Source of the DNA: an uncultured Sphingomonas sp.
GTDB lineage: Bacteria > Pseudomonadota > Alphaproteobacteria > Sphingomonadales > Sphingomonadaceae
DNA: 33,166 bases
Reading direction: 5' to 3'
Assembly (NCBI GenBank): GCA_913775025.1
Contig: CAJYJW010000238.1
Span: 1-33,166 of the forward strand
Part shown: one piece after another, positions 2,438 through 23,221 of the stretch
Layout: each line of letters starts with the position of its first letter
Numbering within the stretch: position 1 is the first letter of the stretch
The notes under the pieces: model-generated
What the model was told of the DNA's origin: nothing
The model's input: only the letters and a program-made list of their open reading frames with translations
Database searches by the model: none
Position numbers and translations under genes: made by a program

Positions 2438-2464
2438 ACGCCTGACTACATAAGGATGATCAAA

Positions 2465-4612
2465 ATGGCGCAGCCCCGCACCGCCGCCCGCCCCCGCCCC
2501 CGCGCGAACAGCCACCCCCGGCTGCTTTCGGAAGGGCGCATCGGCCCGCTCATACTCAAGAATCGCATGATCGTGACGGCGATGGGCGTAAGCCTTTCTG
2601 AAGCGGACGGCCATGTCAGCCAGCGGCTGATCGATTATCATGTCGCCCAGGCGCGGGGCGGGGCGGGGCTGATCGTGCTTGGGGTGACGGGCGTCGCCTT
2701 TCCGGTCGGCCAGGTCTGCCTCAACCAGACGGCCATCTCCGACGATCGCTATCTGCCGGGCCTGACCCGACTGACCGAGGAGATTCATGCCGCAGGCGGG
2801 AAAGTGGCCGCGCAGCTTCACCACGGCGGGCTCGTCGCGGCGTTCAGCGCGGGTGGTGGCCACCCCTTGTGGGGCCCGGCTTATCCCGCCCCCTATTCCG
2901 GCGATCTGCTCGATTATTTCCTGCCCGAGGAAATGGCGGCCTTCGCGGGTGGCCCGATCCCGGAGGTGAAGATCATGGATGCGGAGGACGTGGCGCATGT
3001 CGTCCGTCAGTTCGCCGATGGCGCGCTGCGCGCGAAGCGGGCGGGGATGGACGGCGTGGAGATCCATGCCGGCCACGGTTATCTCCTGTCCTCCTTCATC
3101 TCGCCCGCCACGAACTCCCGCACCGATGAGTATGGCGGATCGCTGGAGAAGCGCGCCCGCCTGCTTCTGGAGGTGGTGCGTGCGGTCCGCGCCGCCGTCG
3201 GCCCCGATTTCGCCATGTGGGTGAAGCTCGATTCACGCGAGGTCGGCAAGGCGGGCGGCATCACGATCGACGATGCCGCCATGCTCGCCCCGCTGGTCGA
3301 GGCGGCGGGCGCGAACGCGATCACAGTTAGCGCCTATCACGATACGGGGCAGGCGAAACTTCATTCCGCCTCGAACATCCCGCACGAACCCGGCGCCCAT
3401 CTGGAGGCGACGCGGGCGATCCGTAAGGCAGTCTCCGTCCCGGTCATCACCTCCGGCCGGCTGGAGGTGGATGCCGCCGAAGAAGGACTGGAGGCGGGCA
3501 ATTACGACTTCGTCGCGATGGGGCGTAAGCTGCTCGCCGATCCCGATCTGCCAAATAAGCTGGCGGAGGGGCGCATCGCCGATATCCGGCCGTGCATCTA
3601 TTGCTACACCTGCGTCAGCGCGATCTACGTGCGAGAGCCGATGCGCTGCGCGGTGCGCCCGGAAACCGCCTTCGAGGGGCGCGACTGGCTGCCCAAACAC
3701 GCCCGCCGCCGCGTCGTGGTGGTGGGCGGCGGCCCCGGCGGCATGGAGGCGGCGCGACGGCTGGACATGTCGGGAGACGAGGTGATCCTGCTGGAAAAGT
3801 CCGATCGGCTGGGGGGAACGTTGCGGTTCGCCGGGCTTGCCTATGAACCGAACGAACGGCTGCTCGACTGGCTGCGGCGGCAGGTCGAGGCGAGCGATGT
3901 CGACGTGCGGCTGGGCACGACGGCGACGGCGGCCTCGATCGCCGCCCTCAAGCCCGATCTGGTGCTGGTCGCCACGGGCGCCGTGCGCGACATGCCGCCT
4001 ATAGCGGGCAGCGATCTGCCGCATGTGTTCAGCGGCGACGATATGCGCGCCATGATGCTTGGCGAAAGATCGGACGACCTGAAGCGCAAGACGAGCTGGA
4101 CGACGCGCCTCGCGACAAAGGTGGGCGCGATGACCGGCGCCACCGCCAATCTCGATCTCGTCCGCAAGGCGACGCATGCGTGGATGCCGCTGGGGCAGAA
4201 CATCGTCATCATCGGCGGCGAGCTGGTCGGGTTGGAGCTTGCCGAGTTCCTGATGGAGCGTGGCCGTTCCGTCACCGTGGTGGGCGCGGCCGACAGGTTC
4301 GGCGGCGGGTTGCTGCTGGTGCGGCGCATGCGGCTGCTGGCCGAACTGAAGGAGCATGGCGTCGCGCTGTTCCCGGCCGCGCAAGATATTGCGATCGAGA
4401 AGGACGCGGTGCGCTTTACCGATGCGGCGGGCGCCGGCCAACGCGCGGCGGCGGATCATGTGATCGTCGCGGTCGGCGCGCGTGGGGACACGACCCTTGC
4501 TGATGCGCTTCTGGCTGAGGGCCTGAACGTCCGCGCCTATGGCGACGCGACCGGCGTCAGCTATATCGAGGGTGCGATCCGCGGCGCGGCGGAGGCGGTG
4601 GCGGCGGGCTGA
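2465..4612 (+). CDS. 2,4-dienoyl-CoA reductase-type flavoenzyme (OYE barrel + Fe-S + FAD/NAD)
   Basis: A 715-residue oxidoreductase of the NADH:flavin oxidoreductase / 2,4-dienoyl-CoA reductase family. Order: FMN TIM barrel (about 15-370) with the active-site region IHAGHGYLLSSF and the SRTDEYGGSLEKR motif; a cysteine cluster (about 377, 380, 383, 395) for a 4Fe-4S centre; a FAD-binding GGGPGGMEAARR near 420; and a second dinucleotide site IIGGELVGLELAEF near 580. Such enzymes reduce or form C=C bonds next to a carbonyl; relatives act on dienoyl-CoAs, bile acids (BaiCD/BaiH) and ketosteroids. Cysteine spacing is C-x2-C-x2-C-x11-C, one residue shorter in the second gap than in E. coli FadH. 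An ATG at 2456 is in frame, but AAGGAT is placed correctly only for 2465. It converges on the EthD-SnoaL gene with 8 bases between the stops. Confidence 0.9.
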   Translation: MAQPRTAARPRPRANSHPRLLSEGRIGPLILKNRMIVTAMGVSLSEADGHVSQRLIDYHVAQARGGAGLIVLGVTGVAFPVGQVCLNQTAISDDRYLPGLTRLTEEIHAAGGKVAAQLHHGGLVAAFSAGGGHPLWGPAYPAPYSGDLLDYFLPEEMAAFAGGPIPEVKIMDAEDVAHVVRQFADGALRAKRAGMDGVEIHAGHGYLLSSFISPATNSRTDEYGGSLEKRARLLLEVVRAVRAAVGPDFAMWVKLDSREVGKAGGITIDDAAMLAPLVEAAGANAITVSAYHDTGQAKLHSASNIPHEPGAHLEATRAIRKAVSVPVITSGRLEVDAAEEGLEAGNYDFVAMGRKLLADPDLPNKLAEGRIADIRPCIYCYTCVSAIYVREPMRCAVRPETAFEGRDWLPKHARRRVVVVGGGPGGMEAARRLDMSGDEVILLEKSDRLGGTLRFAGLAYEPNERLLDWLRRQVEASDVDVRLGTTATAASIAALKPDLVLVATGAVRDMPPIAGSDLPHVFSGDDMRAMMLGERSDDLKRKTSWTTRLATKVGAMTGATANLDLVRKATHAWMPLGQNIVIIGGELVGLELAEFLMERGRSVTVVGAADRFGGGLLLVRRMRLLAELKEHGVALFPAAQDIAIEKDAVRFTDAAGAGQRAAADHVIVAVGARGDTTLADALLAEGLNVRAYGDATGVSYIEGAIRGAAEAVAAG

Positions 4613-4620: not shown

Positions 4621-5439
4621 TCAACCCAGCTCCTCCGCGCCGGCTGCGAGGATGGCCGGATCGCCGCCATGCGTCGCCCACAGGGCATCGCGGCGGACGA
4701 TCCGCCAGCCCTCCGCACGGCGTTCCCAACGATCAATATATTCGCCGTTCGAATCGAAGATCGCGCCGCCCGGATCATTGCGGCGCTGATGCCGCGCCTG
4801 CACATAAGCGCGGCTCACGGCAGTGTCCCCCGCCGGATCGACGAGGATGCTGCCGAGCAAATGTTGCGTGCCGCCGCACGCATCGAGATAACGGCGCATC
4901 TGATCGGCCAGCGCCGCCATGCCCTGCCGCTCGCCCTGGCCATAATCGAACTCGATATCGTCGGCGAAGACGTCGCCGAGATCGTCCCACGCCTTCGTAT
5001 CCAGCACGCGCGCGAACCGGGCGAGGCCCCGCGTGATTGCCCGCTCGTCCTGCAACGCGCGCAACCCGTCCGCCTCCAAAGTGACGCGGCCGGAGATCGG
5101 GCCACCATGCTCTTCCACCAGCATCATCCGCGTGGCCGAGCGATCGAACACATGCTCCTCGTCCTGCGCGATCAGGCGCGCGACCTCGGGCTCGGCGCAG
5201 CGCGCGGCGAAACGATCGTAGGCGGCGCGATCGGCGAAGCACAATTCCGTCACGCAATCGAAATCGATGGGGACGCCGAACGCGAACGCACCCTCGCGCT
5301 GTACGAAGTTACGCTTGTACGAAAGGATATCGGGGCAGAGGCCGACGATCAGAGGCGCATGGCGCGTCTCATAATAATGGACGAACGCCTCATTCGAAAG
5401 GTCGGCCCTGCGTTTCAGCAGCGCCACGCATTTGATCAT
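4621..5439 (-). CDS. EthD-SnoaL fusion protein
   Basis: 272 residues with two unrelated small domains: an EthD-like ferredoxin fold at about 1-110 (IKCVALLKRRADLSNEAF, YYETRHAPLI, SYKRNFVQ) and a SnoaL/NTF2-like domain at about 130-258 (ARVLDTKAWDDLGDVFADDI, GEYIDRWERRAEGWRIVRR). It is the last gene of the long minus-strand operon, 26 bases after the aldolase stop. The frame stays open upstream into the aldolase, but the MIKCV start preceded by GGCGGGGG is the natural one and matches the usual EthD N-terminus. The reaction is unknown; the SnoaL half often carries hydratase, isomerase or cyclase-like pockets. The window also encodes the two domains as separate proteins (1022-1534 and 1718-2437). 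Confidence 0.85.
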   Translation of the reverse strand: MIKCVALLKRRADLSNEAFVHYYETRHAPLIVGLCPDILSYKRNFVQREGAFAFGVPIDFDCVTELCFADRAAYDRFAARCAEPEVARLIAQDEEHVFDRSATRMMLVEEHGGPISGRVTLEADGLRALQDERAITRGLARFARVLDTKAWDDLGDVFADDIEFDYGQGERQGMAALADQMRRYLDACGGTQHLLGSILVDPAGDTAVSRAYVQARHQRRNDPGGAIFDSNGEYIDRWERRAEGWRIVRRDALWATHGGDPAILAAGAEELG

Positions 5440-5465: not shown

Positions 5466-6638
5466 TCAGCCGCCACTCAGGATAAGCCCGCTCGTCGGTA
5501 CGCCCGTGCCCGCCGTCACCAGCACCAGGCCGTCGCCCGGCACCTGATTGACGGATGTGCCGCGCACCTGCCGAACGCCCTCGGCGATGCCGTTCATGCC
5601 GTGGATATACGCCTCGCCCAGCTGCCCGCCATTGGTGTTGATGGGCAAACGCCCGCCAATCTCGATGCCCTCGTGCCGAATGAAGTCCTTCGCCTGCCCC
5701 TTCGGCGCGAAACCGAACGCCTCGATCTGCGGCAGCACGAAGGGGGAGAAATGGTCGTAGAGGATGGCGGTGCGAATATCCCCGGCGCCCGCCCCCGCCT
5801 GCGCGTAAAGCTGCTCCGCCACCAGGTCCATTTCGGAAAGACGAGAGATGTCGGACCGGTAATAGCTCGTCATCATCTGCTGATCGTCCGCCGCACCTTG
5901 GGCCGCTGCCCGAATGATCGCGGGCGGCTGGCGCAGCTTCGCGGCGCGTGCGGCGCTCGTCACCACGATTGCCTGCGCGCCGTCCGATTCCTGACAGCAG
6001 TCGAGCAGGTGAAGAGGCTCGACGATCCAGCGCGAGGCCTGATGCTGCTCCAGCGTGATCGGCTGCTCGTAGAACCAGGCCTTCGGATTGGTCGCGGCAT
6101 GGCGGCGGCAGGCGACCGAGACGCGGCCGAAATCCTCCGATGTCGCCCCCGTCTCGTGCATATAGCGTCGCGCCGCCATCGCCACCCATGATGCGGGGGA
6201 GACCAGGCCGAAGGGCACGTAATAGCCGTAATGCGCGCTTTCCGCATTGGGTACCGGCGGCGGGGTGTAGCCGCTGCCGAAGCGATATTGCGATCGCTCA
6301 TTCATCGCGCGATAGCATACGATGACCTCGGCGACGCCCGTCGCCACCGCCATCGCTGCTTGCATGATCGGCGCGCAGGCCGCGCCACCGCCATAATGCA
6401 CGCGGCTGAAGAACTTCAGCCGCCGCCCGCCGATGTTGCGGAAGACCTCGATTTCGGGGTTGTTGTCCATCGTGTAGGTGCAAAGGCCATCGACCTCGGC
6501 GCGGTCGATCCCGGCGTCTTCCAGCGCAGTGGTGATCGCCTCCACCGCCAGGCGCAGTTCCGACCGGCCGCTGTTCTTGGAGAATTCGGTCGCACCGATG
6601 CCGACGATCGCGGCCTGCCCGGATAGCGCATCGCTCAC
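5466..6638 (-). CDS. Thiolase-fold acyl-CoA retro-aldolase (Ltp2-like)
   Basis: 390 residues of the SCP-x/lipid-transfer thiolase family. Ltp2 of actinobacteria is not a thiolase but an aldolase that cleaves the beta-hydroxylated C3 side chain of a steroid acyl-CoA to a 17-ketosteroid and propionyl-CoA, working with a DUF35 partner. The two tyrosines reported as essential in Ltp2 of Thermomonospora curvata (Tyr294, Tyr344) occur here at exactly 294 (AILYDHFSPF) and 344 (GEAYIHGMNG). A Cys sits at 88 (GGGAACAP). Length matches Ltp2 (about 386). Its ATG overlaps the stop of the MaoC gene (ATGA), and the DUF35 partner is two genes further upstream. The substrate could be another alpha-methyl-branched acyl-CoA. 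Confidence 0.88.
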   Translation of the reverse strand: MSDALSGQAAIVGIGATEFSKNSGRSELRLAVEAITTALEDAGIDRAEVDGLCTYTMDNNPEIEVFRNIGGRRLKFFSRVHYGGGAACAPIMQAAMAVATGVAEVIVCYRAMNERSQYRFGSGYTPPPVPNAESAHYGYYVPFGLVSPASWVAMAARRYMHETGATSEDFGRVSVACRRHAATNPKAWFYEQPITLEQHQASRWIVEPLHLLDCCQESDGAQAIVVTSAARAAKLRQPPAIIRAAAQGAADDQQMMTSYYRSDISRLSEMDLVAEQLYAQAGAGAGDIRTAILYDHFSPFVLPQIEAFGFAPKGQAKDFIRHEGIEIGGRLPINTNGGQLGEAYIHGMNGIAEGVRQVRGTSVNQVPGDGLVLVTAGTGVPTSGLILSGG

Positions 6639-7033
6639 AGCGCGGCTCCATATTCGAGGGTGACGGTGGCGGTGACGTGATCGCCTATACGATTGCGCCC
6701 GCGTACCGATACGGTCGCCCGGTCGCCATCCACGCTCGCGACCTCACCGGTCAGCACCATCGTATCGCCAACGAAGTTGGGCGCGCCGAGGCGTATGGCG
6801 ATCCCCGCGATACGCGGCCCCGGCCCGCACCAGTCGCTCACGTAACGCTGGACGAGGCCGTTGGTCGTCAGGATGTTCATGAAGATGTCGGGCACGCCGG
6901 TCGCCTGCGCGGCGGCCTTGTCGTGGTGGACGTTCTCGAAATCATTGGTCGCGATCGCGCCCGCCACGATCGCGCCGGCGGTGATCGGAAAGCTGAGTTC
7001 GGGCAGCGTCTGCCCTGTCGTGGGACGCGTCAT
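6635..7033 (-). CDS. MaoC-like enoyl-CoA hydratase subunit (ChsH1 type)
   Basis: A 132-residue single hot-dog protein. It keeps the hydratase-2 catalytic pair: Asp31 and His36 in NDFENVHHD. In the mycobacterial ChsH1-ChsH2 hydratase the short subunit holds the active Asp/His and the longer MaoC-DUF35 subunit provides the rest of the tunnel; length (ChsH1 about 129) and residue positions fit. The expected reaction is addition of water to an alpha,beta-unsaturated acyl-CoA, producing the substrate of the downstream aldolase. Start chosen at MTRPTTGQ because it overlaps the preceding dehydrogenase stop as ATGA; the frame is open upstream only as a shadow of that gene. Confidence 0.87.
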   Translation of the reverse strand: MTRPTTGQTLPELSFPITAGAIVAGAIATNDFENVHHDKAAAQATGVPDIFMNILTTNGLVQRYVSDWCGPGPRIAGIAIRLGAPNFVGDTMVLTGEVASVDGDRATVSVRGRNRIGDHVTATVTLEYGAAL

Positions 7034-8160
7034 GCCAGCGGCTCCGTCTTGCCTGATGCGATGGCGGCGCCGATGCGCGCCGCCATCGGCGCCTGCCCGC
7101 CCAGCGCCTCGCCGATCTGCGTTGCGGTGAGGAAGTAGCGGTGGATCGGATAGGTCACGTCCGCCCCCATGCCGCCGTGCAGATGCTGGGCCGTGTGGAC
7201 GACACGGTGCCCGCCCGCCGCCGCCCAATATTTGGCGGTGGCGATATCGGCCTCCTGCGCGGCGCCCGTATCGATCTGCCACGCGGCGAGCAATGCGGTG
7301 CCGCGCATCGCCTCGACATCGATGAACGCGTCGGCGGCGCGCTGCTGCACCGCCTGAAAGCTGCCGAGCGCCTTGCCGAACTGCATGCGGTTGGAGGAAT
7401 AATCGGCGGTGCGGCGCAACGCTTCGGCCGCCACCCCCACCTGCCGCTGCGCCAGCGCGACCTGGCCCCGCTGCACGAGTTCGCGCACGATCCGTTCGCC
7501 CGCGCCCGCATCACCCACGATCGCATCGCCGGGCAGCGATACGCCGTCGAGCGTCACCATCGCCTGCGGTTCGCCGCTGGTGGAGGCTTGCGCCGCGATC
7601 GTGACGCCAGGGGTGCCGGGATCGACGAGGAATAGCGCGGGGCCGTCCGCCGTCGTCGCGGTGACCAGCAGCGCCTGCGCCTCTGCGCCGTAAGGCACCG
7701 CCACCTTCGAACCGGTCAGCCGCCAGCCGTTGCCCTCCGCCTCCGCGCGTGCGACAGGCCGTGCCGGGTCCAGCCCACCCACTTCTTCCACCGCGCAGGC
7801 GAGGATCGCCTCGCCCGCGATCACCTTCGGCAGCCACGCGCGTTGCGCCTCGCTCCCCTCGCGGTCGAGCGCGACTGCCGCCATCGCCAGCGTGCCGGTG
7901 AGCGGCAGCGGTGCCAGCGTACGGCCCTGCTCCTCCAGCAGCAGGCCGAGATCGATCAGCCCGAGGCCGAGGCCCCCGCCCGCCTCCGACACCGCGATGC
8001 CCAGCAGCCCCGCCTCCGCGAGCGTGCGCCAGAGCGCCGCGTCATAAGGCGCGCCGCTGGCGGCGAAATCGCGCAATGCCTCATCGCTGGTCGCATCGCC
8101 AAGGATACGCGAAGCGAGATCCCTAAGGTCGCGCTGATCGTCCGAAAGGTTGAAATCCAT
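7030..8160 (-). CDS. Acyl-CoA dehydrogenase, non-catalytic-type subunit (FadE28/ChsE1-like)
   Basis: 376 residues with the acyl-CoA dehydrogenase fold: N-terminal helices (FNLSDDQRDLRDLASRIL), a middle beta domain (about 120-230) and a C-terminal helical domain ending QHLHGGMGADVTYPIHRYF. Where the partner has Glu (NHERIGLA) this protein has LVQRGQVALAQ, so it lacks the catalytic base. That is the pattern of FadE28/ChsE1, which forms an alpha2beta2 enzyme with FadE29/ChsE2 and contributes to FAD and substrate binding. The likely partner is the ACAD at 9099-10274, with the DUF35 gene between them. A GAGGAA site precedes the ATG; the stop overlaps the next gene (ATGA). Confidence 0.9.
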   Translation of the reverse strand: MDFNLSDDQRDLRDLASRILGDATSDEALRDFAASGAPYDAALWRTLAEAGLLGIAVSEAGGGLGLGLIDLGLLLEEQGRTLAPLPLTGTLAMAAVALDREGSEAQRAWLPKVIAGEAILACAVEEVGGLDPARPVARAEAEGNGWRLTGSKVAVPYGAEAQALLVTATTADGPALFLVDPGTPGVTIAAQASTSGEPQAMVTLDGVSLPGDAIVGDAGAGERIVRELVQRGQVALAQRQVGVAAEALRRTADYSSNRMQFGKALGSFQAVQQRAADAFIDVEAMRGTALLAAWQIDTGAAQEADIATAKYWAAAGGHRVVHTAQHLHGGMGADVTYPIHRYFLTATQIGEALGGQAPMAARIGAAIASGKTEPLA

Positions 8161-8169
8161 GTCCGTTCC

Positions 8170-9102
8170 TCAGGCGAGGCGAAAGGCGGGGAGGATGTAG
8201 CCGGGCTCCACCTCGACGAAATCGGCGGTGACCGCGCGGCCGATCGCGACATCCTCCGGCGCGGCATCAAGCATGTTGGCAACGATGCGCACGCCCTCCT
8301 CAAGCTCCACCAGCACTACCGGCAAAGGATAGGCGAACCCAGGCATCTGCGGCTGGTGCATCACCACGAAGCTGTGGATCGTACCGCGTCCGCTCGCCTC
8401 GACGATCTCGAAATCCAAGCTGCCGGTCACCGGGTCCATCGGCCCCGGCGGATGACGCAGCCGCCCGCCGAACGACTGGAACAGCAGCTTGCGGTTTGTC
8501 AGCCCCTCCCAGAAGAAGGCGTTGTCATGCGTGATCGCGGGGCGCGGGTGGGGGAAGCTGTCCGCTTCCTGCGCCGGCGGCGGCGGCGCGGCGGGGCTGA
8601 GGTTCGGTTTGAACTTCAGCACGCGAAACGTCATCCGGCCGACGGGCTCGCCCGCGACCGTGAAGTCATAGGCGAGCGTCACGAAATGGCCGATGCCGAG
8701 GCCGGTGCGCTTCTCCTCCGACACGTCCGCCACGGTCGGCGTCGAGGTGACGACATCGCCGATCGTCAGATAGCGGTCGTATCGCTGCTCGACATTCGTG
8801 GCGACGACACCGGTGTAACCCGCCGCGTCGAACAGCGCGAGAACGGGCATGTCCTCCTCGCTCGTCCGCCCGCCGGGGCGATAGGGCGGCATCGCCCACA
8901 CATCCAGCATCGCAGGCGGCGCGACGATGCCGGGGTGCCCCGCCGCGCGTGCCGCCGCCTCATCGGTATAGACGGGGTTCGTCTCGCCCATCGCCTCGCA
9001 CCAGCGGCGGATCATCGGCAGGTTCACGGCATCGCGCGCCGTGGCGGGCGCATTCGCCGCGCGGCCGACCCAAGCGCGTGCCTCTTCGAGCAGTCCGCTC
9101 AT
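8170..9102 (-). CDS. MaoC-DUF35 fusion protein (ChsH2 type)
   Basis: 310 residues, the length of mycobacterial ChsH2 (about 311). Residues 1-168 form a MaoC hot-dog domain, a proline-rich linker spans about 168-180, and 185-310 is a DUF35/OB-fold acyl-CoA-associated domain (RHPPGPMDP, EASGRGTIHSFVVMHQP). The MaoC half lacks the Asp/His pair (the equivalent stretch reads MGETNPVYTD), as expected for the helper half of a split hydratase. The DUF35 half would dock on the Ltp2-like aldolase. The zinc-ribbon cysteines usual in DUF35 are absent (LLFQSFGGRLRHPP; PMDPVTGS). Start MSGLLEE overlaps the upstream ACAD stop (ATGA). Role: hydration of the enoyl-CoA and hand-over to the aldolase (inference from family). 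Confidence 0.88.
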   Translation of the reverse strand: MSGLLEEARAWVGRAANAPATARDAVNLPMIRRWCEAMGETNPVYTDEAAARAAGHPGIVAPPAMLDVWAMPPYRPGGRTSEEDMPVLALFDAAGYTGVVATNVEQRYDRYLTIGDVVTSTPTVADVSEEKRTGLGIGHFVTLAYDFTVAGEPVGRMTFRVLKFKPNLSPAAPPPPAQEADSFPHPRPAITHDNAFFWEGLTNRKLLFQSFGGRLRHPPGPMDPVTGSLDFEIVEASGRGTIHSFVVMHQPQMPGFAYPLPVVLVELEEGVRIVANMLDAAPEDVAIGRAVTADFVEVEPGYILPAFRLA

Positions 9103-10274
9103 GCGCGCGCCGCCCGCGGCATCTTGAGGCCGACCTGCGCCACCATATCGCGCAGCACCTCGGCGGTGCCCCCGCCGAAGGTGTTGATCTGGCATTTGCG
9201 ATATTCGCGCTCGATCCGCCCGCGCAGCGCCGCGCCCGGCGAGCCGTCCTTCACGAGGCCGACCGGCCCCAGCACGTCGAGCAGAAGCCGCATCACCTTG
9301 ATGACGCCCTCCGTGCCGAACACCTTGAGGCCCGAGGCGAGATCGGCGCGGGTGGAGCCCTGCGCAACTTCGCTCGCCACGCGATTGCCCATCTGGCCGA
9401 TCGCGCTCAGCGTCGCATAGGCTTCGCCCAGCGCGGACTGCACCCACGGCACGTCAATAAGCGTACCGCCCCCCGCCTCGACCTCGCGCGCCCAGGCGAC
9501 GACCTGATCGAAGCAGCCGTTGGCGCCGTAGGTGAGCGCCGCCAGGCCGATGCGCTCGTGGTTGAGCTGCTCGGCGATCAGCCGCCAGCCACCGTTCACC
9601 TCGCCGATCACCATGTCGGCGGGCACGCGCACATCCTCGTAATAGGTCACGTTGGTGCGGAAGCCGCCCACCGTCCAGATCGGCGAGACGGAGAAGCCGG
9701 GCAGCGTCGTATCCATCATCAGGATGGTGATGCCCTTGTGCGGCGGCGCATCGGAATCGGTGCGGACGGCAAGGAACACATAGTCCGCCCCTTCCGCGCC
9801 GCTGGTGAAGATCTTCTGCCCGTTGACGATGTAGTCGTCGCCGTCGCGCACCGCCCGCGTCTTCAGGCTGGCGAGATCCGTGCCGGCGCCCGGCTCCGAA
9901 TAGCCGATGGCGAAGATCAGGTCGCCGCTCGCGATGCGCGGCAGGATGGCCTTCTGCTGCGCTTCCGTCCCCAGCCGCATCAACGCGGGGCCGACGGTGT
10001 TGACCGTGACGAACGGGAAGGGCGCGTCCGCCAGCACCAGTTCCTCCAGCAGAATCTTTTGGGTGAGCGGATCCAGTCCCTTGCCGCCATAGGCAACGGG
10101 CCAGCCCGGCGTCAGCCAGCCGTCCCGCCCCATCTGGCGGATCACGCGACGATATTCGGGTCCGCTCTCCGCATTAAGGGTCGCGGCGCGCGTCTCCGGG
10201 GTCATCAATCCGTCGAGATACGCACGGAACTCGGCGCGAAGCGCCTTCTGTTCGGGGCTGTAATCAACCTGCAT
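9099..10274 (-). CDS. Acyl-CoA dehydrogenase, catalytic subunit (FadE29/ChsE2-like)
   Basis: 391 residues (FadE29 is 387). It shows the ACAD N-domain (MQVDYSPEQKALRAEFRAYL), the flavin/substrate motif FAIGYSEPGAGTDL (about 121-134), the beta-domain sequence ADYVFLAVRTD, and near the C-terminus INTFGGGTAEVLRDMVA. Glu240 in NHERIGLA lies where isovaleryl-CoA dehydrogenase and FadE29 carry the catalytic base. Expected reaction: FAD-dependent alpha,beta-dehydrogenation of a branched or steroid side-chain acyl-CoA, electrons passing to ETF. It overlaps the ligase stop by 11 bases and the DUF35 gene by ATGA. The presumed partner is the ACAD at 7030-8160. Confidence 0.92.
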   Translation of the reverse strand: MQVDYSPEQKALRAEFRAYLDGLMTPETRAATLNAESGPEYRRVIRQMGRDGWLTPGWPVAYGGKGLDPLTQKILLEELVLADAPFPFVTVNTVGPALMRLGTEAQQKAILPRIASGDLIFAIGYSEPGAGTDLASLKTRAVRDGDDYIVNGQKIFTSGAEGADYVFLAVRTDSDAPPHKGITILMMDTTLPGFSVSPIWTVGGFRTNVTYYEDVRVPADMVIGEVNGGWRLIAEQLNHERIGLAALTYGANGCFDQVVAWAREVEAGGGTLIDVPWVQSALGEAYATLSAIGQMGNRVASEVAQGSTRADLASGLKVFGTEGVIKVMRLLLDVLGPVGLVKDGSPGAALRGRIEREYRKCQINTFGGGTAEVLRDMVAQVGLKMPRAARA

Positions 10275-12087
10275 GGTCTGCTCCCTCGAAAGGTGGAATG
10301 CCGAGACGGTCGAGCGCCGCTGCGGTCAGCGGAACGTAGGTGGCCGCCGCCGGATCGGCGACGAACAGCGGATCGCCCTTCACGCGGGCAGGGTCGTAGC
10401 CTTCGCGCTGCACATCCACCTTGCGCAGCTTGAAGGTGGAGGTCATGTCGGCGGCATCGGTCAGCCGCACGAACAGCGGCACCGCATAATGCGCCAGATG
10501 CGTGCTGGCGTAGGCGTGGAAGCCTGCCGGATCGAACGCCACGCCTGGCGGATAGGTGAGCGCCACCATCCCCGCACGCCCCTCCGTCCCCGGCACCAGC
10601 ACGCCGTAGACGTTGACAACCGAGGGACCGGAGAAGCCCGCCAGTACCGTCTCCACCTCGGCGGTCGAGACGTTCTCGCTCTTCCAACGGAAGGTGTCGC
10701 CGGCGCGATCGACGAAGAAGACGTAATCCTCCTCGTCGAAGCGGACGAGATCGCCCGAGCGGAACCAGCGGTCGCCAGGCTTGAACAAATCGCGGATCAG
10801 CTTCGCCTCGGTGGCTGGGGCGGAGGTGTAACCCTCGAAGAAGCCGCCGACGCCGGTGCCGTCGAGCACTTCGGCGACGAGTTCGGCCACCTCGTGCGGG
10901 CCGGCCAGCACATAGCCGCCGTCTGCATTGCGGACATGCTCGCCGGTCGCCACGTCATACTTCAGAAAGCGAATGTTGGTCGCTTGCGGATAGGGCAGGC
11001 GGCCGACCGATCCGATCCGATTGTCGACGTTGGTGACGCCGTAGTTCGCCTCGGTCGATCCCAACCCCTCATAGACATCGCGCACGCCGAAACGATCGAC
11101 GAAGGCGGCCCACACGTCGGGCTTGAGACCCGCCCCCGTCATCGCGCGCAGGCCGTGATCGCGATCGCCGGGCGTAGAGGGCGAGGCGAGCAGATAGCGG
11201 ACGATCTCGCCGATATAATAGAAAGCGGTGATGCGGTGGCGGCGCACGTCCGCCCAGAAACCCGAGCGGCTGAACCTGCGCCGCAGCACGAACGGCCGCC
11301 CGGTCGCGAGCGAGACGGAAGGCACCACCATGCCGCCGGCGCCATGGTAAAGCGGCAGCACGCAATAGAAAGTGTCATCGTCGCCGAACTCCAGCAGGCC
11401 CGCCATCATCTCGCCGGCGTTCAGGAAACGCATGTGGCTCATCTTCGCGGCCTTGGGCAGGCCGGTCGTGCCGGATGTGAAGATCAGGTAGAGCGGATCG
11501 GCCATCACGATCCCGTCGCGCAGGGTGGGATCGGGATTGGTGTCTGCGGCGGCGGCCATGGCCGCATCGAGATCGCGCCAGCCGCTGGCGGTGCGATCCG
11601 CCCCCGTCTCGGATTGCTCGAACACGAGTACGGGCAGATCTTCCGCCGCCATCCCCTCGATCAGGGCGGCAAGCTCGGATCCGACAATCAGCGCGCGCGC
11701 GCCCACCTGCGCGAAGGCGTGTTTGAGCACCGGCCCCGTCGCCGTCGTATTGATGAGAGCGGTGACGATGCCCGCCTTCGCCAGCCCCAGCCACAGCATG
11801 ATATATTCGGGCCGGTTGAGCATCAGCAGCGCCACCACGTCGCCGCGCCTGAGCCCCGCCGCCATTGCCGCATGCGCCACGCGATTGGCACGCGCATTCA
11901 TCGTGGCGAAGCCGATCGCCTGCTCCTCGAACAGGATGAAGGGCGCGTCGTTCTCGCTCGCCGCCCGCTCCTCCAGCCGGTCGGCCACGGTATAGGGCAG
12001 ATCGCGCGCGAAGGGGGCGACGCGCGCGTAGCCACGCATCAGCCGCCGCATCGTCTCCTCGCGCGGGGGGGCGACGAAACCGGTCAT
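10264..12087 (-). CDS. FATP-type acyl-CoA ligase
   Basis: 607-residue AMP-forming ligase of the very-long-chain/fatty-acid-transport-protein branch. Visible are the phosphate loop FTSGTTGLPK (about 203-212), YEGLGSTEANYG, the SGDLVRFDEEDYVFFVDRAGDTFRWKSEN hinge region (written here in parts: SGDLVRFDEE, FVDRAGDTFRWKSEN), and the C-terminal lysine motif TSTFKLRKVDV. Relatives activate long-chain acids, bile acids and cholesterol side-chain acids (FadD17/FadD19 types) to CoA thioesters. Sitting directly before the ACAD/MaoC/DUF35/Ltp2 genes, it probably makes the CoA ester they consume. ATGA overlap with the upstream alpha/beta hydrolase. Substrate not determinable from sequence. Confidence 0.92.
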   Translation of the reverse strand: MTGFVAPPREETMRRLMRGYARVAPFARDLPYTVADRLEERAASENDAPFILFEEQAIGFATMNARANRVAHAAMAAGLRRGDVVALLMLNRPEYIMLWLGLAKAGIVTALINTTATGPVLKHAFAQVGARALIVGSELAALIEGMAAEDLPVLVFEQSETGADRTASGWRDLDAAMAAAADTNPDPTLRDGIVMADPLYLIFTSGTTGLPKAAKMSHMRFLNAGEMMAGLLEFGDDDTFYCVLPLYHGAGGMVVPSVSLATGRPFVLRRRFSRSGFWADVRRHRITAFYYIGEIVRYLLASPSTPGDRDHGLRAMTGAGLKPDVWAAFVDRFGVRDVYEGLGSTEANYGVTNVDNRIGSVGRLPYPQATNIRFLKYDVATGEHVRNADGGYVLAGPHEVAELVAEVLDGTGVGGFFEGYTSAPATEAKLIRDLFKPGDRWFRSGDLVRFDEEDYVFFVDRAGDTFRWKSENVSTAEVETVLAGFSGPSVVNVYGVLVPGTEGRAGMVALTYPPGVAFDPAGFHAYASTHLAHYAVPLFVRLTDAADMTSTFKLRKVDVQREGYDPARVKGDPLFVADPAAATYVPLTAAALDRLGIPPFEGADHAG

Positions 12088-12944
12088 GCCGCATGCGCCT
12101 TCAGGAAGGGGAGGATGGCAGAGACGAAGGCGTCGTTATCGTCGCCCGCCACCATATGATGCGCGCCATCGATCGGCACGACCTCCGCCTCCGGCAGAAG
12201 CGCGCGGAACCGCGCGGCCCCGTCCGCCGAAACGATCTCGCTCGCGGTGCCGTACACCAGCATCAGCGGCGCCGTGATCGCGCGGGCGGCGGCGGAGAGG
12301 CGTTCGTTCATCGCCTCCATGTCCCACCCGTCCTGCGGGGCGACGAAGCCGGGATCCCAGTGCCAGTACCAGCGGCCGTCCTTCTTCTGCCGCAGGTTGC
12401 GCGAAAGGCCGTCGAGCCGTTCGGGCCGCGGACGGTGGGGCAGATAGCTCGCGATCGCATCCGCCGCCTGTTCCAGCGTATCGAACCCGCCCGACGTGCC
12501 GCGCATGAAACCCACGACATGCTCGCCGCCCTTCGCCTCCAGCCAGGGGACGATATCGACCAGCACGATCCCGGCGGCGGGGGCCGCCGGCCCCTCCCCC
12601 ATCGCCAGCATCGAGGCCAGCCCACCGAGCGATGCGCCGACGACGAGCGGCGGCGCATCGAGTGTCGCGATCACGTCGCGCAGATCGTTGGCGAAGGCGT
12701 CGAGCGTGTAGCGGTTGTCGGCGCTCCAGTCGCTGTCGCCATGCCCGCGCATGTCGAGCGCGATCGCATCGAAGCCGTCGTCCGCCAGCGCGCGCGCCGC
12801 CGTCGCCCACGCGCCGCGCGTCTGCCCGCCGCCGTGGAGCAGCAGCACCGGCGCACCACGTGCCCCGCCGTAACGCGTCGCGACGAGCGAAAGGCCGTCA
12901 CGCGCGGTATAGCCCAGCGTCGTTTCCGCCACCGTCAGTTCCAC
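12084..12944 (-). CDS. Alpha/beta hydrolase
   Basis: 286 residues with a GTG start. The oxyanion HGGGQTRGAW (His38), nucleophile elbow GASLGG (Ser105), a late acidic region (YGTASEIVSADG) and the catalytic His region GAHHMVAGDDND give the full hydrolase triad. It could cleave an ester, lactone, thioester or C-C bond. The GTG at 12944 is chosen because GGAGG lies about 10 bases upstream and it overlaps the Coq4-like stop by 10 bases; an upstream in-frame extension would run deep into that gene. The position between a Coq4-like gene and a CoA ligase suggests release or editing of an acid before activation (inference). Confidence 0.87.
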   Translation of the reverse strand: MELTVAETTLGYTARDGLSLVATRYGGARGAPVLLLHGGGQTRGAWATAARALADDGFDAIALDMRGHGDSDWSADNRYTLDAFANDLRDVIATLDAPPLVVGASLGGLASMLAMGEGPAAPAAGIVLVDIVPWLEAKGGEHVVGFMRGTSGGFDTLEQAADAIASYLPHRPRPERLDGLSRNLRQKKDGRWYWHWDPGFVAPQDGWDMEAMNERLSAAARAITAPLMLVYGTASEIVSADGAARFRALLPEAEVVPIDGAHHMVAGDDNDAFVSAILPFLKAHAA

Positions 12945-13741
12945 AGCGCCGATGCCTCCGCCGTATCGGCCTCGCGCACGCCGTTGATGCCGAGATGCGT
13001 GCGCGCCTGCTCTGGCGTCATGTCGAGCACGTCCTCGTAGCGGATCATGTAGATCGGCGCGGATTCGCGGCCGACCTTCGCCCCCCGCTCGATCGTGTCC
13101 AGCACGGTTAGCCACGTCTGCGGGTAATGCAGCACCGCGCGCGTCACGATCCGCGTCGATCCGAAGATCGAGAAGGCCGAAAGTTCGCCGGCAAGCTCGG
13201 GGCTCAGATGCACGAACAGGTTCGTCAGCCGCATGTAATAAGGCACCAGCTCGCCGATGAAGTCGAACCCGCCGCCGCCCAGAATATGTTCGAAATCATG
13301 CTGCTGGCCGGCGCGGAGCTGAAAATATTCGTAATCGTTGCGGGGCGTGAATTTGGGCACGATATCGACCTGCAAGCCGTTCTCCACGAGCTGGCGATAG
13401 AAGATGCCGCCCACCGTATCCGGGGCGTGCGCGGCAAGATCGTCGCGCTGGAAATCGGAGGAGAAGCGCGCCCCGAACCATGCGTCGAGCGCAGGATTTT
13501 TCGCACGCTCGGCGGCGATCAACGCGTTGATATGATCGATATCCTGCACCTCGCGCATAATGAGCGCGAGTTTCATCGAATCGGACGGCGTCGGCACGTC
13601 CGGGCCGTTGCGGCGGAGCATATGCGTCGCCACCCAGTCGCGCAGACGTGGATCGTTCAGATAGCGCGACGAGCTTATCAGCGTGCTGCTTTCGGTGGAG
13701 AGCGGCACGATGCCCTTCATCAGGTAGCTATAGTCGTTCAT
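12935..13741 (-). CDS. Coq4-like protein
   Basis: 268 residues. The key evidence is the HDxxH-x11-E metal motif of the COQ4 family: His148, Asp149, His152 and Glu164 in QQHDFEHILGGGGFDFIGE. The helical surroundings (RDWVATHMLRRNGPD, LFVHLSPELAGELSAFSIFG) also fit. Coq4 binds a metal and prenylated lipid and has been linked to organisation of the ubiquinone-synthesis complex and to oxidative decarboxylation of the ring precursor. Here there are no ubiquinone genes; the gene sits between an AtuA-like gene (ATGA overlap) and an alpha/beta hydrolase in a catabolic operon, so a role on a hydrophobic catabolic intermediate is likely. Function unproven. Confidence 0.8.
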   Translation of the reverse strand: MNDYSYLMKGIVPLSTESSTLISSSRYLNDPRLRDWVATHMLRRNGPDVPTPSDSMKLALIMREVQDIDHINALIAAERAKNPALDAWFGARFSSDFQRDDLAAHAPDTVGGIFYRQLVENGLQVDIVPKFTPRNDYEYFQLRAGQQHDFEHILGGGGFDFIGELVPYYMRLTNLFVHLSPELAGELSAFSIFGSTRIVTRAVLHYPQTWLTVLDTIERGAKVGRESAPIYMIRYEDVLDMTPEQARTHLGINGVREADTAEASALWN

Positions 13742-15534
13742 GGCATCCTCTCGGGCAGGCGCTGAGCGAGATCGGCGGGTATACGGACAGGAAAGCGCAT
13801 GATGACCTGGGCCATGCCCTTCGCGGCCGGGTCCAGCCCCTTGCAACGCAGGATGCCGCCGTCCAGCGAGTCGCGGACCACGAAATTGAGCGCGTTTAGC
13901 CCAGGCGCGACATAACGGTCGACGGCGAGCGGGCTGCCATCCGCGGACAGATGGCGATACCATTCGCCGACCGCCTGAGCGGTCATCGCCGTCGCGATCC
14001 ACGGCAGAAATTCGGGCTGGCGGGCGATCACGGCCACGTTGAACAGGCTGCCCTTGTCGCCGCTCCGCCCCCAGGCCAGCCGGATGAGGTCGACCTCGAC
14101 CAGTTCTCCGTCCGCCACGTCCGGCGCCGGGGCGGGATGAACGGCCGGCACGCTCGTTTCGCCGACGAATGAGGCGACGGTCCAGCACCTGTCACCCATC
14201 GTCACCGTCGCTGCCACCTCCTCGCGGGGCAGCAGGAAAGCGAAGATGCCGGTCAGCGGCAGCACGCTCGTGGCGATATTGATGCCCGTACCGACCGACA
14301 TGGTGGTGATGCCCGACGCCTGCTCGCGCGCGAAGAGACCGGCGCCTTCCGGTGTTGGATGATCGATCGTCATCTTCAGGATGACTTCGCGGGAGTCGTG
14401 GATCCGCGCCTGCGCGCCGAAACTTGCCTCCTCCCCGATGACGATGGCCGCGCTGTCCGTGAAGTCGGCCATGTTGCGCGACCGCAGCAACGCTCGTGCG
14501 CGCGACAGGATGGCCGCGCCCTGCCGGCGTGCCTTCGCGCCCGCTTCCTCCCCGATGATGGGTTGATAGGCGACCGCGCGCCATCCGGCCTCATGCGTCA
14601 CGCTGGCCTTCAGATACGGCGTCGGTGGCCGGCCCCGCGCGCCGGAGACATGGACCCGGTTCGGCCCGTCCGAGGTCAGCCGCACCTCGCTGAAATCGCA
14701 TGACACATCCGCCACCACATAGTCGGCGGGATCGCTGACTTCGTAGAGTAGCTGTTCGGCGACCGTACCGACCGAGACCAGGCCGCCCGACCCTTCTGGC
14801 TTGGTGATGACGACGCTGCCATCCGCGCGGCATTCGCCGATCGGAAAGCCGATCGTCTCCCAGCCCTCCACAGCCCGCCAGTCCGTGAACGTACCGCCTG
14901 TGATCTGGGTACTGCATTCCAGCAGATGCCCAGCGAGCGTGCCGGCGGCGAGCTTGTCGTGATCGTCCGGCCCCCAGCCGAAGGCATGGATGAGGGGGCC
15001 GAGAACGATGGCGCTGTCGACCACCCGCCCCGTCACGACGATGTCGGCGCCCGCCGCGAGCGCGGAGGCGATGGGGAAGCCGCCGAGGTAGGCGTTGCAG
15101 GTGAGCGCGCCATCGGGAAACGGCGCGCCGGTGAACATGTCGCTGGCTTCCCGCAGATCCTGCACGCGGTCGATCAGGTCGTCGCCCGTGATCGCGGCCA
15201 CCTTCAGCGACAGGCCGGCCTCGGCGATTTTCCTCTCCAACGCGCGCGCCAGGCCCAGCGGATCAAGCGCGCCGGCGTTCGCGACCACCTTGATGCCCTG
15301 TCGCGCGATCTCGTACAGATGCGGGCCGACGTGAATGGCGAGGAAATCGGGCGGATAGAGCACGGGGGGGTCGGCCCTGCGCTGGCGACCGAACATGCCC
15401 ATGCTCGCCTCGGCGAGATAATCGAACACGAGATAGTCCAGGCCACCGGCCGCGAGCAGCTGCGGCACGCCATGGGCGCTGTCGGCGAAATAGGCCGATC
15501 CGCCACCGATCCGGATCACACGTCCATCCACCAT
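13738..15534 (-). CDS. AtuA-like protein (DUF1446 + C-terminal AtuA ferredoxin-fold domain)
   Basis: 598 residues. The N-terminal about 450 residues are the acyclic-terpene-utilisation AtuA/DUF1446 domain (RIGGGSAYFADS, DYLVFDYLAEASMGM, ITGDDLIDRV, GRVVDSAIVLGPLIHAFGW); the last about 110 residues are the AtuA-like C-terminal domain (LIRLAWGRSGDKGSLFNVAV). AtuA is needed for citronellol/geraniol use in Pseudomonas but its biochemical role is not settled. Here there is no geranyl-CoA carboxylase, so the terpene link is only by family. First gene of the main operon; GAGGCGG lies just before the ATG. A 155-base gap with an inverted repeat separates it from the AraC-type gene. Confidence 0.88.
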   Translation of the reverse strand: MVDGRVIRIGGGSAYFADSAHGVPQLLAAGGLDYLVFDYLAEASMGMFGRQRRADPPVLYPPDFLAIHVGPHLYEIARQGIKVVANAGALDPLGLARALERKIAEAGLSLKVAAITGDDLIDRVQDLREASDMFTGAPFPDGALTCNAYLGGFPIASALAAGADIVVTGRVVDSAIVLGPLIHAFGWGPDDHDKLAAGTLAGHLLECSTQITGGTFTDWRAVEGWETIGFPIGECRADGSVVITKPEGSGGLVSVGTVAEQLLYEVSDPADYVVADVSCDFSEVRLTSDGPNRVHVSGARGRPPTPYLKASVTHEAGWRAVAYQPIIGEEAGAKARRQGAAILSRARALLRSRNMADFTDSAAIVIGEEASFGAQARIHDSREVILKMTIDHPTPEGAGLFAREQASGITTMSVGTGINIATSVLPLTGIFAFLLPREEVAATVTMGDRCWTVASFVGETSVPAVHPAPAPDVADGELVEVDLIRLAWGRSGDKGSLFNVAVIARQPEFLPWIATAMTAQAVGEWYRHLSADGSPLAVDRYVAPGLNALNFVVRDSLDGGILRCKGLDPAAKGMAQVIMRFPVRIPADLAQRLPERMP

Positions 15535-15689: not shown

Positions 15690-16535
15690 TTAGTTCACCG
15701 CGATGCGCTCGTTCCGGTAGCGCCCCGGCGTAACGCCGGTGGCGCGGCGAAAGGCGAGGGAAAAGCTGCTGGGCGTTGCGAAGCCGAGGCGGGCGGCGAT
15801 CTGCTTCAACGGCAACGCCGTCTCGCCCAGCATTACGCGCGCCCGCGCCAGGCGTGCTTCTTCCACGAACTGATGGACGGTGCGCCCGGTCGTCTTGCGG
15901 AACGTGCGGACGAGATGGCCGGGGCTCATGTCCAGCAGGGCGGCGAGATCGGCGATGCGCATCCCCCCTCCATCGGCCGTCTGCACATGATCCTCCAGCC
16001 GGCGCAATTGCCACGGCGCCAGCATGCCGACGTGCCCCTGCACGCTCTGCGCGGCGCGTGCGAGATAGCGCGCCAGATCGACCCGCACCCCGGTCGCCAG
16101 TGCATCGATCAGGATGTCATGCGCGAAACCGGGCGTCATCGCCTCCCTCGCCATGCGCTGCATGGCCGCGTGGATATGCGGATCGCGAATGTCGCAGCAC
16201 AGCGCCAGATGCGAGAGGTCGCCACGATCGAAATCGGCGGGAAGGATGCCAGGCTCCATCGTGCAGGATGCGACGCGCCGCTCGCCCCCGGGCCCGCTCG
16301 CCTCGATCAGCACCCCCGCCGGCACGATCATCAGGTTCCCCAGCGCCAGGAGCCGGCTTGCGCCCGCATCCGAGCGGAACAGGCCCCGCGCGTTACGCGC
16401 CTGACCGCCGATCAGCGCCATCACGTCCCTGGGCGGTGACCGCATCTGATAGGACGGTGTTTCGTAGCGATAGGTATAGACGTGGATGCGCGCCTGATCG
16501 GTGCGTAATTCCACGCTGGACGGCGCTGTTGCCAT
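15690..16535 (-). CDS. AraC-family transcriptional regulator
   Basis: 281 residues. The C-terminal about 100 residues hold two helix-turn-helix units: MRIADLAALLDMSPGHLVRTF and, later, IAARLGFATPSSFSLAFRR followed by ATGVTPGRYRNE, the typical AraC/XylS end. The N-terminal half (about 1-165) is a sensor region without a clear recognised ligand motif. It is transcribed toward the AtuA operon and probably regulates it or the neighbouring receptor/SDR/VOC unit. GGGAGAG lies 7 bases before the ATG. The 114 bases upstream (16536-16649) contain a small ccggg/cccgg hairpin (about 16551-16566) and no gene. Confidence 0.9.
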   Translation of the reverse strand: MATAPSSVELRTDQARIHVYTYRYETPSYQMRSPPRDVMALIGGQARNARGLFRSDAGASRLLALGNLMIVPAGVLIEASGPGGERRVASCTMEPGILPADFDRGDLSHLALCCDIRDPHIHAAMQRMAREAMTPGFAHDILIDALATGVRVDLARYLARAAQSVQGHVGMLAPWQLRRLEDHVQTADGGGMRIADLAALLDMSPGHLVRTFRKTTGRTVHQFVEEARLARARVMLGETALPLKQIAARLGFATPSSFSLAFRRATGVTPGRYRNERIAVN

Positions 16536-22096: not shown

Positions 22097-23221
22097 CTAA
22101 TTGAGACCGAGGGAAATCTGAGGTTCGAAAGGCTCCATTTGATCGAACTGCCCAAGCCTCAGCTTGCGCGCCCAGGCCGCATCGCCAAGGATTGCGCGGC
22201 CGAGCGAGACGAGATCGAATTCCCCGCGCGCCAGCCGTTCGCGTACATCGTCGAGATGGTCGAGCGCGACGGTCGCCTTCGTCGCGTAGATATTGGCTTC
22301 ACCATATTCCAGCGAGGTTTTGGCCAGCCCGATACCTCCCCCGGCGATCGTCGGCTTACCGGTGAGCGATCTTACCCAGCCCGCAAGGTTGAGGGGGCTG
22401 TCCGGAAACTCCGGCCTGAAGAAGCGGCGTTGCGAACAGTCGAACAGGTCGACACCCGCATCGACAATCGGCGCAAGCAATTCTGCAAGCTCCGTCGGCG
22501 TATTCGCCAGTCGCGCGGCATAGTCGGTCATCTTGAACTGCGACAGTCGCAGCAGGATAGGAAAATCCGCATGGGTAGCGGCGCGACATGCCGCTACGAT
22601 CTCCGCGGCGAAACGGCTGCGATCCCGCCCGTAGGCGTCGCTGCGGCGGTTGGTGCGAGACCAGAGGAACTGATCGATCAGGAAACCATGCGCGGCGTGG
22701 ATCTCGATGCCATCGAACCCGACCCGGTGGGCATCGGCGGCAGCCCGGGCGAATGCCTCGATCACCGCGTCAATATCCGCCAACGTCATCACCTGCCCGT
22801 CCTCCCGCCCGGGGCCGGCTTCCGCACCAACTTGTGCGCCGGGCAGCCAAACGCCCGAAGGGCCGATGCCGGGCAACGTCGGCGGGTTCATCGCCAACCC
22901 CTGCAGGCCGGCGTGGGCCAGTTGCGGCACGATCCGGCCGCCGGCCGCATGCACTTCTTCTACGATCCCCGCCCAGGTATCGAGGGGGCTCCCGTGAAAA
23001 TGCGGTTCGTTATCGTCGAAGGAGGATCGCGGATGACCTATGGCGGTCGCCCCCGTTACGATGAGACCAATCTCCCCCTCGGCGCGACGACGGTAGAAAC
23101 CGGCATAGGCCGCATCCGGCAAACCCCCGGGCGCGCGGCCCTGCCCCATCGGCGCCATGACGATCCGGTTCGGCAGGCTCAGCGGGCCGATCGTCATCGG
23201 CGCCAATAGCGGATCGTGCAT
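22097..23221 (-). CDS. Old yellow enzyme-family NADH:flavin oxidoreductase
   Basis: 374 residues forming a single FMN TIM barrel: MTIGPLSLPNRIVMAPMGQG at the N-terminus, IVPQLAHAG, the active-site segment IEIHAAHGFLIDQFLWSRTNRR (seen as HAAHGFLIDQFL then WSRTNRRSDAYG), and the C-terminal phosphate site with DLVSLGRAILGD. It reduces an activated C=C bond or carries out the reverse desaturation. It has no Fe-S or second FAD domain, unlike the 2465-4612 enzyme. Divergent from the HsdA-like SDR over a 460-base gap. GAGGCG lies 6 bases before the ATG. A ketosteroid or enone substrate is plausible from context only. Confidence 0.92.
   Translation of the reverse strand: MHDPLLAPMTIGPLSLPNRIVMAPMGQGRAPGGLPDAAYAGFYRRRAEGEIGLIVTGATAIGHPRSSFDDNEPHFHGSPLDTWAGIVEEVHAAGGRIVPQLAHAGLQGLAMNPPTLPGIGPSGVWLPGAQVGAEAGPGREDGQVMTLADIDAVIEAFARAAADAHRVGFDGIEIHAAHGFLIDQFLWSRTNRRSDAYGRDRSRFAAEIVAACRAATHADFPILLRLSQFKMTDYAARLANTPTELAELLAPIVDAGVDLFDCSQRRFFRPEFPDSPLNLAGWVRSLTGKPTIAGGGIGLAKTSLEYGEANIYATKATVALDHLDDVRERLARGEFDLVSLGRAILGDAAWARKLRLGQFDQMEPFEPQISLGLN

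Follow-up and report, generated by a model that had tools for sequence, protein, structure and literature searches.

The window analysed here is the whole of contig CAJYJW010000238.1 (C238; 33,166 nucleotides) of an uncultured Sphingomonas sp., taken from a 3.57-Mb assembly of 346 contigs that is 96% complete. Its minus strand carries an operon that very probably serves steroid C3 side-chain removal, that is, removal of the three terminal carbons, as judged for its reactions, protein complex and substrate class by analogy with characterised homologues. The core of this operon is formed by five adjacent genes (5466–10274) which, on sequence grounds, are a complete igr-type C3 side-chain module and probably a functional one. 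This module had been proposed in a sequence-only reading of the same DNA, and the five open reading frames were present with the lengths given there (391, 310, 376, 132 and 390 residues). Omitted from that reading were the acyl-CoA ligase gene directly upstream (10264–12087), which is also part of the module, a bsd I-like cluster at 27042–32879, and the prior description of an operon of this kind in Caenibius tardaugens. The module and its ligase are listed with the evidence for each assignment:

5466–6638, minus strand: Ltp2-type retro-aldolase, 390 residues, YDHF (294–297) and Tyr344 (6ok1_A match, PRK07855, residues, tree)
6635–7033, minus strand: ChsH1-type MaoC hydratase subunit, 132 residues, Asp31/His36 (small chain of 4wnb/4w78, residues)
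7030–8160, minus strand: ChsE1 (FadE28-type) acyl-CoA dehydrogenase subunit, 376 residues (6wy8_A and 4x28_D matches)
8170–9102, minus strand: ChsH2-type MaoC–DUF35 fusion, 310 residues (4wnb/4w78, 6ok1_B, Pfam OB_ChsH2_C)
9099–10274, minus strand: ChsE2 (FadE29-type) acyl-CoA dehydrogenase subunit, 391 residues, Glu240 (6wy8_B and 4x28_A matches, residues)
10264–12087, minus strand: acyl-CoA ligase, proposed C22 steroid acid activator in the StdA2 position (PRK08279, gene order)

These six belong to a run of ten minus-strand genes arranged head to tail in the order AtuA, Coq4-like, hydrolase, CoA ligase, ChsE2, ChsH2, ChsE1, ChsH1, Ltp2 and EthD-SnoaL. The successive gaps are −4, −10, −4, −11, −4, 9, −4, −4 and 26 bp, and because all lie between −11 and 26 bp the run looks like a single predicted transcript.

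The proteins were compared with solved structures, and igr counterparts led for all five by a wide margin, in agreement with the family assignments proposed earlier. Ltp2 scored 567 bits with T. curvata 6ok1_A (next best 165), ChsH1 123 bits with 4wnb_B/4w78_B (next 33), ChsE2 400 bits with 6wy8_B and 393 bits with 4x28_A (next 141), and ChsE1 266 bits with 6wy8_A and 207 bits with 4x28_D (next 117). Residues 6–175 of ChsH2 matched the MaoC chain of the ChsH1–ChsH2 structures 4wnb/4w78 at 159 bits, and residues 187–309 matched 6ok1_B, the DUF35 chain of the Ltp2 structure, at 111 bits; the MaoC part is thus followed by a C-terminal DUF35 on one chain, as the igr-type fusion requires. Profile matches were obtained for Ltp2 with NCBIfam PRK07855, a ‘lipid-transfer protein’ subfamily (664 bits, cut-off 469), and for the CoA ligase with PRK08279 (690 bits, cut-off 625).

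Key residues were read from alignments of the best tblastn match per locus. Y294, D295, F297 and Y344 of Ltp2 were invariant in 92/92 aligned rows, so that both tyrosines named in the sequence-only reading were recovered, and H296 was found in 91/92. In igr-type modules the catalytic Asp and His are typically confined to ChsH1 and the catalytic Glu to ChsE2. D31 and H36 of ChsH1 were kept in 89 of 90 rows, the remaining row being a gap, and the position of the catalytic His in ChsH2 was occupied by Tyr in 74/86 rows including the window protein, which bears out the claim that Asp and His are present in the short MaoC protein only. The corresponding claim for the dehydrogenases, Glu in the longer subunit only, is subject to a caveat. 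E240 of ChsE2 was kept in 85 of 88 rows, and at the three exceptions (L012, L013 and L021) the best match may be a paralogue, because no ChsE2 was found adjoining Ltp2 at these loci. The caveat concerns Glu351 of the window ChsE1, which lies near the alternative glutamate site of acyl-CoA dehydrogenases; as Glu occurs at this position in only 8/88 aligned rows, a catalytic role for it is unlikely.

The roles of Tyr294, His296 and Tyr344 in T. curvata Ltp2 are described in PMC12329534, together with a YDCY motif and Gln in place of Tyr344 for the Sal/Shy C5 aldolase and an HDCF motif with catalytic Cys for SCP-2 thiolase. Neither signature was found in the window Ltp2, which has YDHF and Tyr344 (T. 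curvata numbering) at these positions. In a tree of 114 aldolase-like rows, 17 operon proteins (the window protein, those of 15 sphingomonad loci and an alphaproteobacterial fragment, L011) formed one group with support 100. This group fell within the Ltp2 clade, alongside beta-/gammaproteobacterial and actinobacterial proteins, and was separate from the Comamonas Sal-position protein (named by its place and YDCY motif) and from five same-genome paralogues. In a second tree, from which three long-branch rows were dropped and to which two plasmid proteins were added, the eight labelled operon rows again lay on one side of a branch, with support 99. Both trees were quick ones with many open forks (35/111 in the 114-row tree), and the placement of long branches outside the clade is unsure. 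The alignment proposed earlier as a check on the thiolase-like protein therefore placed it with the Ltp2 clade and gave no refutation.

By analogy with the characterised enzymes, the CoA ligase would activate a steroid acid with a three-carbon side chain (a C22 acid) as its CoA ester, ChsE1–ChsE2 would oxidise this C22 acyl-CoA to the C17(20) enoyl-CoA, and ChsH1 with the MaoC half of ChsH2 would hydrate the enoyl-CoA to a tertiary 17-hydroxy-acyl-CoA. Ltp2, docked on the DUF35 half of ChsH2, would then perform the retro-aldol cleavage, with Tyr294 acting as base, His296 at the oxyanion and Tyr344 as acid. The resulting 17-ketosteroid would enter the 9,10-seco ring pathway, whose genes lie elsewhere in the genome; the second product, propionyl-CoA, could be passed to the methylmalonyl-CoA mutase set encoded beside a KshA-type gene.

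The genome context gives good support for steroids as the class of substrate. Genes of HsaC, HsaA, HsaD, HsaE, HsaG and KshA type and a KstD-like gene are present in the host, mostly scoring below strict NCBIfam cut-offs or lacking a model. Contig C40 (10.5 kb) of the same genome holds HsaC-type (280 bits, NF045631), HsaA-type (384 bits, NF045629), HsaD-, HsaE- and HsaG-type genes, a CoA-transferase gene (ipdA candidate), a nitronate-monooxygenase-type gene (ipdC candidate) and two crotonase genes, one of them an echA20 candidate, the ipd and echA20 names being based on family type and gene order. The 266-residue product of the gene adjoining the CoA-transferase matched no model, and the gene is a candidate ipdB by position only. 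Contig C333 holds a KshA-type oxygenase gene (PF19298, 188 bits, cut-off 23), beside which a split methylmalonyl-CoA mutase and MeaB are encoded (L168, 3391–6338), an arrangement that fits disposal of propionyl-CoA. In Sphingomonas jatrophae, the closest named relative among the loci listed (Ltp2 93% identical), the bsd I-like ligase, the operon, the KshA-type gene, the mutase and the hsa/ipd genes span about 75 kb (1.885–1.960 Mb); in the coordinates of its contig C6, about 50 bp separate the end of C333 from the left end of the window, with C40 at a place farther on.

The distribution of the operon was followed in 397 genomes of the family, an even draw from a larger group; scoring in each genome was limited to the few best candidates of a first look. 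Ltp2 at 78% identity or more was found in 14 of them, the window genome included. An HsaC-like gene (E ≤1e-40) was present in 14/14 of these and in 42/383 of the others (p = 2.6e-13, one-sided Fisher test, in which independence is overstated since the genomes are related), and in 6 of the 14 it lay on the contig of Ltp2, 26–48 kb off. HsaD (NF045632) was rejected as a ring-pathway marker, 13/14 control genomes also giving matches and 0/9 genomes scoring above the cut-off; HsaC and KshA were used instead. Cytochrome P450 genes were present in all 14 operon genomes at E 1e-20, with no match on the window contig at that threshold. Of the substrates suggested in the sequence-only reading, steroid is favoured by genome context, bile acid is doubtful for the reasons given below, and terpenoid finds no support here beyond the AtuA family name.

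Several observations weigh against a role in steroid side-chain removal. The HsaC-, HsaA-, HsaD- and HsaE-type proteins score below the NCBIfam equivalog cut-offs, for which reason the Hsa labels denote type only; the KshA-type protein of C333 gave no NCBIfam match at E 1e-30; and among the KstD-like genes of the genome even the best shares only 39% identity with the query from Comamonas. Linkage of the operon to ring genes is visible in relatives, and adjacency in the fragmented assembly of the window organism is taken from S. jatrophae. When the 14 operon genomes were searched with the Comamonas Sal-position protein (E 1e-50), one clear orthologue (69%) and two distant matches (36–37%) were obtained, so the usual C5-stage enzyme is absent in most carriers. 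An operon deletion in C. tardaugens still grew on cholate and deoxycholate (PMC12882949), and Rhizorhabdus wittichii RW1, in whose genome (G227) the operon was found, is reported in PMC4810484 to grow on testosterone and to lack growth on cholate or cholesterol; the operon accordingly occurs in a strain reported to use neither of these common side-chain steroids. Finally, the Ltp2 fold alone is no proof of a steroid substrate, because a sister clade of aldolases, which includes the protein of an ipfDE-like plasmid locus, would carry out like chemistry on a non-steroid.

Given that the C5 stage is mostly absent and that the published growth results are negative, a C22 steroid acid imported as such is a reasonable candidate for the natural substrate of the steroid operon, although it is put forward tentatively. 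Possibly, and with no greater assurance, the sphingomonad C3 module has become detached from the known upstream side-chain pathways and scavenges steroid acids of the C22 type, for example bisnorcholenoic acids released by sterol-degrading actinobacteria, or else some steroid of plant or microbial origin that has yet to be recognised; the hydrolase and the Coq4-like protein of the same predicted transcript would prepare the substrate.

A bile-acid route has to be considered because of a second cluster near the other end of the window:

31236–32879, minus strand: acyl-CoA ligase, CasG/SclA-like (NCBIfam CasG 387 bits, below the cut-off of 750)
30380–31249, minus strand: amidohydrolase, bsd I-like (Pfam Amidohydro_2)
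29253–30368, minus strand: Rieske oxygenase with KshA_C domain, bsd I-like (Pfam KshA_C 95.7 bits)
28207–29253, minus strand: small acyl-CoA dehydrogenase subunit, Scd4B position (Pfam, gene content)
27042–28205, minus strand: large acyl-CoA dehydrogenase subunit, Scd4A position (Pfam, gene content)

The gene content resembles that of the cholate-induced bsd I cluster of C. tardaugens (EGO55_16295–16335), with identities of 66% for the amidohydrolase, 60–61% for the Rieske protein, 43% and 61% for the dehydrogenases and 44% for the ligase. In the C. tardaugens genome (G197) the counterparts lie together near 3.467 Mb; they were assigned to EGO55_16305–16325 by gene content against the description in PMC12882949, not by locus tags. 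The window cluster differs in that the ligase comes first and that MaoC and hydrolase genes were not noted adjoining it. With this cluster and the igr-type operon, the contig bears two steroid side-chain clusters, and the bsd I-like one could, as a guess, shorten a C24 bile-acid side chain upstream of the C3 module. The module would then be the C3 stage of bile-acid side-chain breakdown and the window would code for a complete two-stage pathway, which is rather unlikely. The clusters are close together in three organisms, with 22.6 kb between the Rieske gene and Ltp2 in the window, 16.6 kb in S. jatrophae and 14.2 kb in G169, which suggests a two-stage side-chain pathway in these three; a bsd I-type Rieske gene (E 1e-110) is also carried by 12 of the 14 operon genomes, the exceptions being G182 and R. 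wittichii RW1. In the remaining nine genomes with both, however, the Rieske gene and Ltp2 are more than 100 kb apart or on separate contigs, and 27 of the 39 genomes of the family sample that carry the Rieske gene (three of them with less than 50% identity) are without the operon; the two clusters are therefore separable. Bile acid is doubtful as the substrate because C. tardaugens kept growing on cholate and deoxycholate once its orthologous operon had been deleted.

A second alternative is that an alpha-methyl acyl-CoA of non-steroid kind, derived from a terpenoid or aromatic acid, is the substrate of the module, as has been proposed for IpfD/IpfE, with release of propionyl-CoA, in ibuprofen breakdown (PMC9195938). 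A retro-aldolase of thiolase type paired with a DUF35 (OB-fold) protein is common to both systems. A sister clade of Ltp2-like aldolases, 57–62% identical to the window protein, comprises L162–L167 and L194 (S. granuli plasmid, 8588–10152) and includes the protein of an IS6100-flanked plasmid locus resembling ipfDE; this plasmid-borne homologue keeps the catalytic residues, including the YDHF/Tyr motif. The AtuA- and OYE-like neighbours of the window module likewise occur in other pathways. In the sister clade, however, the aldolase is preceded by a stand-alone DUF35 protein of 127–144 residues (three loci read: L162, L165 and L194), whereas the window DUF35 is fused in ChsH2 and the window Ltp2 falls in the igr clade, outside the sister clade. 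The six chromosomal genes of the sister clade were each viewed in a 20-kb stretch, and no orthologues of ChsE1, ChsH1 or ChsH2 were found there, only distant acyl-CoA dehydrogenases at 27–35% identity; the proteins at 57–62% identity were on this account, and because they group with the ipf-like protein, rejected as a second igr copy. HsaC accompanies the sister clade in 2/7 cases, against 14/14 for the operon. A non-steroid substrate is accordingly held to be improbable. The third alternative, which takes the genes for a common branched-chain beta-oxidation set that includes an SCP-2 thiolase and resembles igr in a generic way, finds its one argument in the large families to which every part belongs and is hardly credible, being refuted at the sequence level by the lead of the igr counterparts over all other solved structures in five of five proteins, by YDHF and Tyr344, and by the position of the protein within the Ltp2 clade.

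Gene order was compared over 92 rows, consisting of the best 80 of at least 574 relatives and 12 stretches of chosen family genomes. S. laterariae was counted twice (L008 = L156), leaving 91 distinct loci; the sample is biased to near relatives, mycobacteria are under-represented and some rows are clipped by contig ends. The block ChsH2-ChsE1-ChsH1-Ltp2 was uninterrupted in 77 rows. The order ligase-ChsE2-ChsH2-ChsE1-ChsH1-Ltp2, with the ligase leading, was found in 16 sphingomonad rows (15 distinct loci), the order ChsH2-ChsE1-ChsH1-Ltp2-ChsE2-ligase in 10 loci including Comamonas, and the mycobacterial igr order in six rows. The FadE28-type gene, which the sequence-only reading had described as moved between the two MaoC genes, thus stands there as a rule in this sample, and its position is misleading as a distinguishing feature; novelty of gene order was rejected by this count. 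A CoA ligase of C3 side-chain degradation is listed at the matching place for C. testosteroni CNB-2 in a table of the review PMC8399759. The ligase-to-Ltp2 order was found unchanged on plasmid p3 of Novosphingobium sp. ES2-1 (L193, 8503–15173), which PLSDB types as conjugative and which carries genes for electron-transfer flavoprotein upstream and a P450 gene downstream of the module; on this evidence the C3 module may be mobile between sphingomonads. In genome G251 (L150, about 9778–10900) the ChsE1 reading does not stay in register with those of its relatives along its whole length, an apparent frameshift or sequencing error.

The remaining genes of the run and its surroundings are as follows:

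12084–12944, minus strand: alpha/beta hydrolase, in the overlapping gene run (Pfam Abhydrolase_1, 4-bp overlap)
12935–13741, minus strand: Coq4-like protein with HDxxHx11E pattern (H148, D149, H152, E164; Pfam Coq4)
13738–15534, minus strand: AtuA-family protein, first in the overlapping run (Pfam AtuA 439 bits)
15690–16535, minus strand: AraC-family regulator, candidate for operon control (Pfam HTH_18)
4621–5439, minus strand: EthD-SnoaL fusion, 26 bp past Ltp2 (Pfam, gap)
2456–4612, plus strand: old yellow enzyme (OYE)-like flavoenzyme related to BaiCD (NCBIfam BaiCD 401 bits, below the cut-off of 825)
18089–20554, minus strand: TonB-dependent receptor (Pfam)

The AtuA, Coq4-like and other flanking genes had been described as lying outside the known igr operon, correctly, and AtuA and Coq4 are inconstant even among sphingomonads. 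Within the fetched stretches of the 15 distinct sphingomonad loci, an AtuA homologue was found in 6 and a Coq4 homologue in 8, with one more at 35% identity; the hydrolase adjoins the ligase in 13, and TonB-dependent receptor homologues (38–70% identity) lie near the operon in 9. An AraC homologue stands upstream on the same strand in L150, L152–L156 and L158. The Coq4-like protein matched Pfam Coq4 at 24.4 bits, barely above the cut-off of 22.9, and gave no NCBIfam match in the profile search; its HDxxHx11E pattern was taken from a three-sequence alignment. OYE-family enzymes flank the operon on both sides, at 2456–4612 (the BaiCD-related protein, below cut-off) and at 22097–23221.

The kind of operon is already known, and one orthologue in this family is in print, the ‘igr-like operon’ of C. 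tardaugens (EGO55_03105–EGO55_03125) described in 2026 (PMC12882949). The core of a published primer has a single match in G197, which lies 0.66 kb from the Ltp2 gene there. The order is the same as in the window, and the identities are 81% for Ltp2, 77% for ChsE2, 72% for ChsH1, 66% for the ligase, 63% for ChsH2 and 51% for ChsE1. In C. tardaugens, unlike the window, two KstD-like genes (41% and 29% identity with the Comamonas query) stand ahead of the operon on its own strand; Coq4 and AtuA homologues were not found in the 20 kb fetched, and bsd I lies elsewhere on the chromosome. The same five enzymes are encoded by ORF40–44 of Comamonas testosteroni TA441, whose disruption (2025) showed them to be responsible for taking the propionyl residue off the side chain of cholate; ORF40–44 sit in a mega-cluster with Sal/Shy homologues (PMC12502768). 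The Comamonas loci compared share the ChsH2-ChsE1-ChsH1-Ltp2 block and have a related CoA ligase beside ChsE2, but ChsE2 and the ligase come after Ltp2 there and before it in the window; the five enzymes of C. suwonensis are 33–66% identical to those of the window and its ligase is 45% identical. The actinobacterial igr order is cyp125-fadE28-fadE29-chsH2-chsH1-ltp2. All five enzymes, the key residues and the DUF35 fusion are common to igr and the window operon, which differs in its order, in the missing P450 match and in its additional genes for a hydrolase, a Coq4-like protein and AtuA. Little has been written on the sphingomonad version, as far as searches of open-licence papers show; two Sphingomonas strains are stated in PMC4810484 to hold just a subset of side-chain genes.

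The enzymes are identified by sequence. The operon is carried by two strains in print, C. tardaugens and R. wittichii RW1, for which no growth substrate served by it was found in the portions of the open-licence literature covered. Among the sphingomonads sampled, a coherent minority (14/397) pairs this Ltp2 with an HsaC-like ring gene each time.

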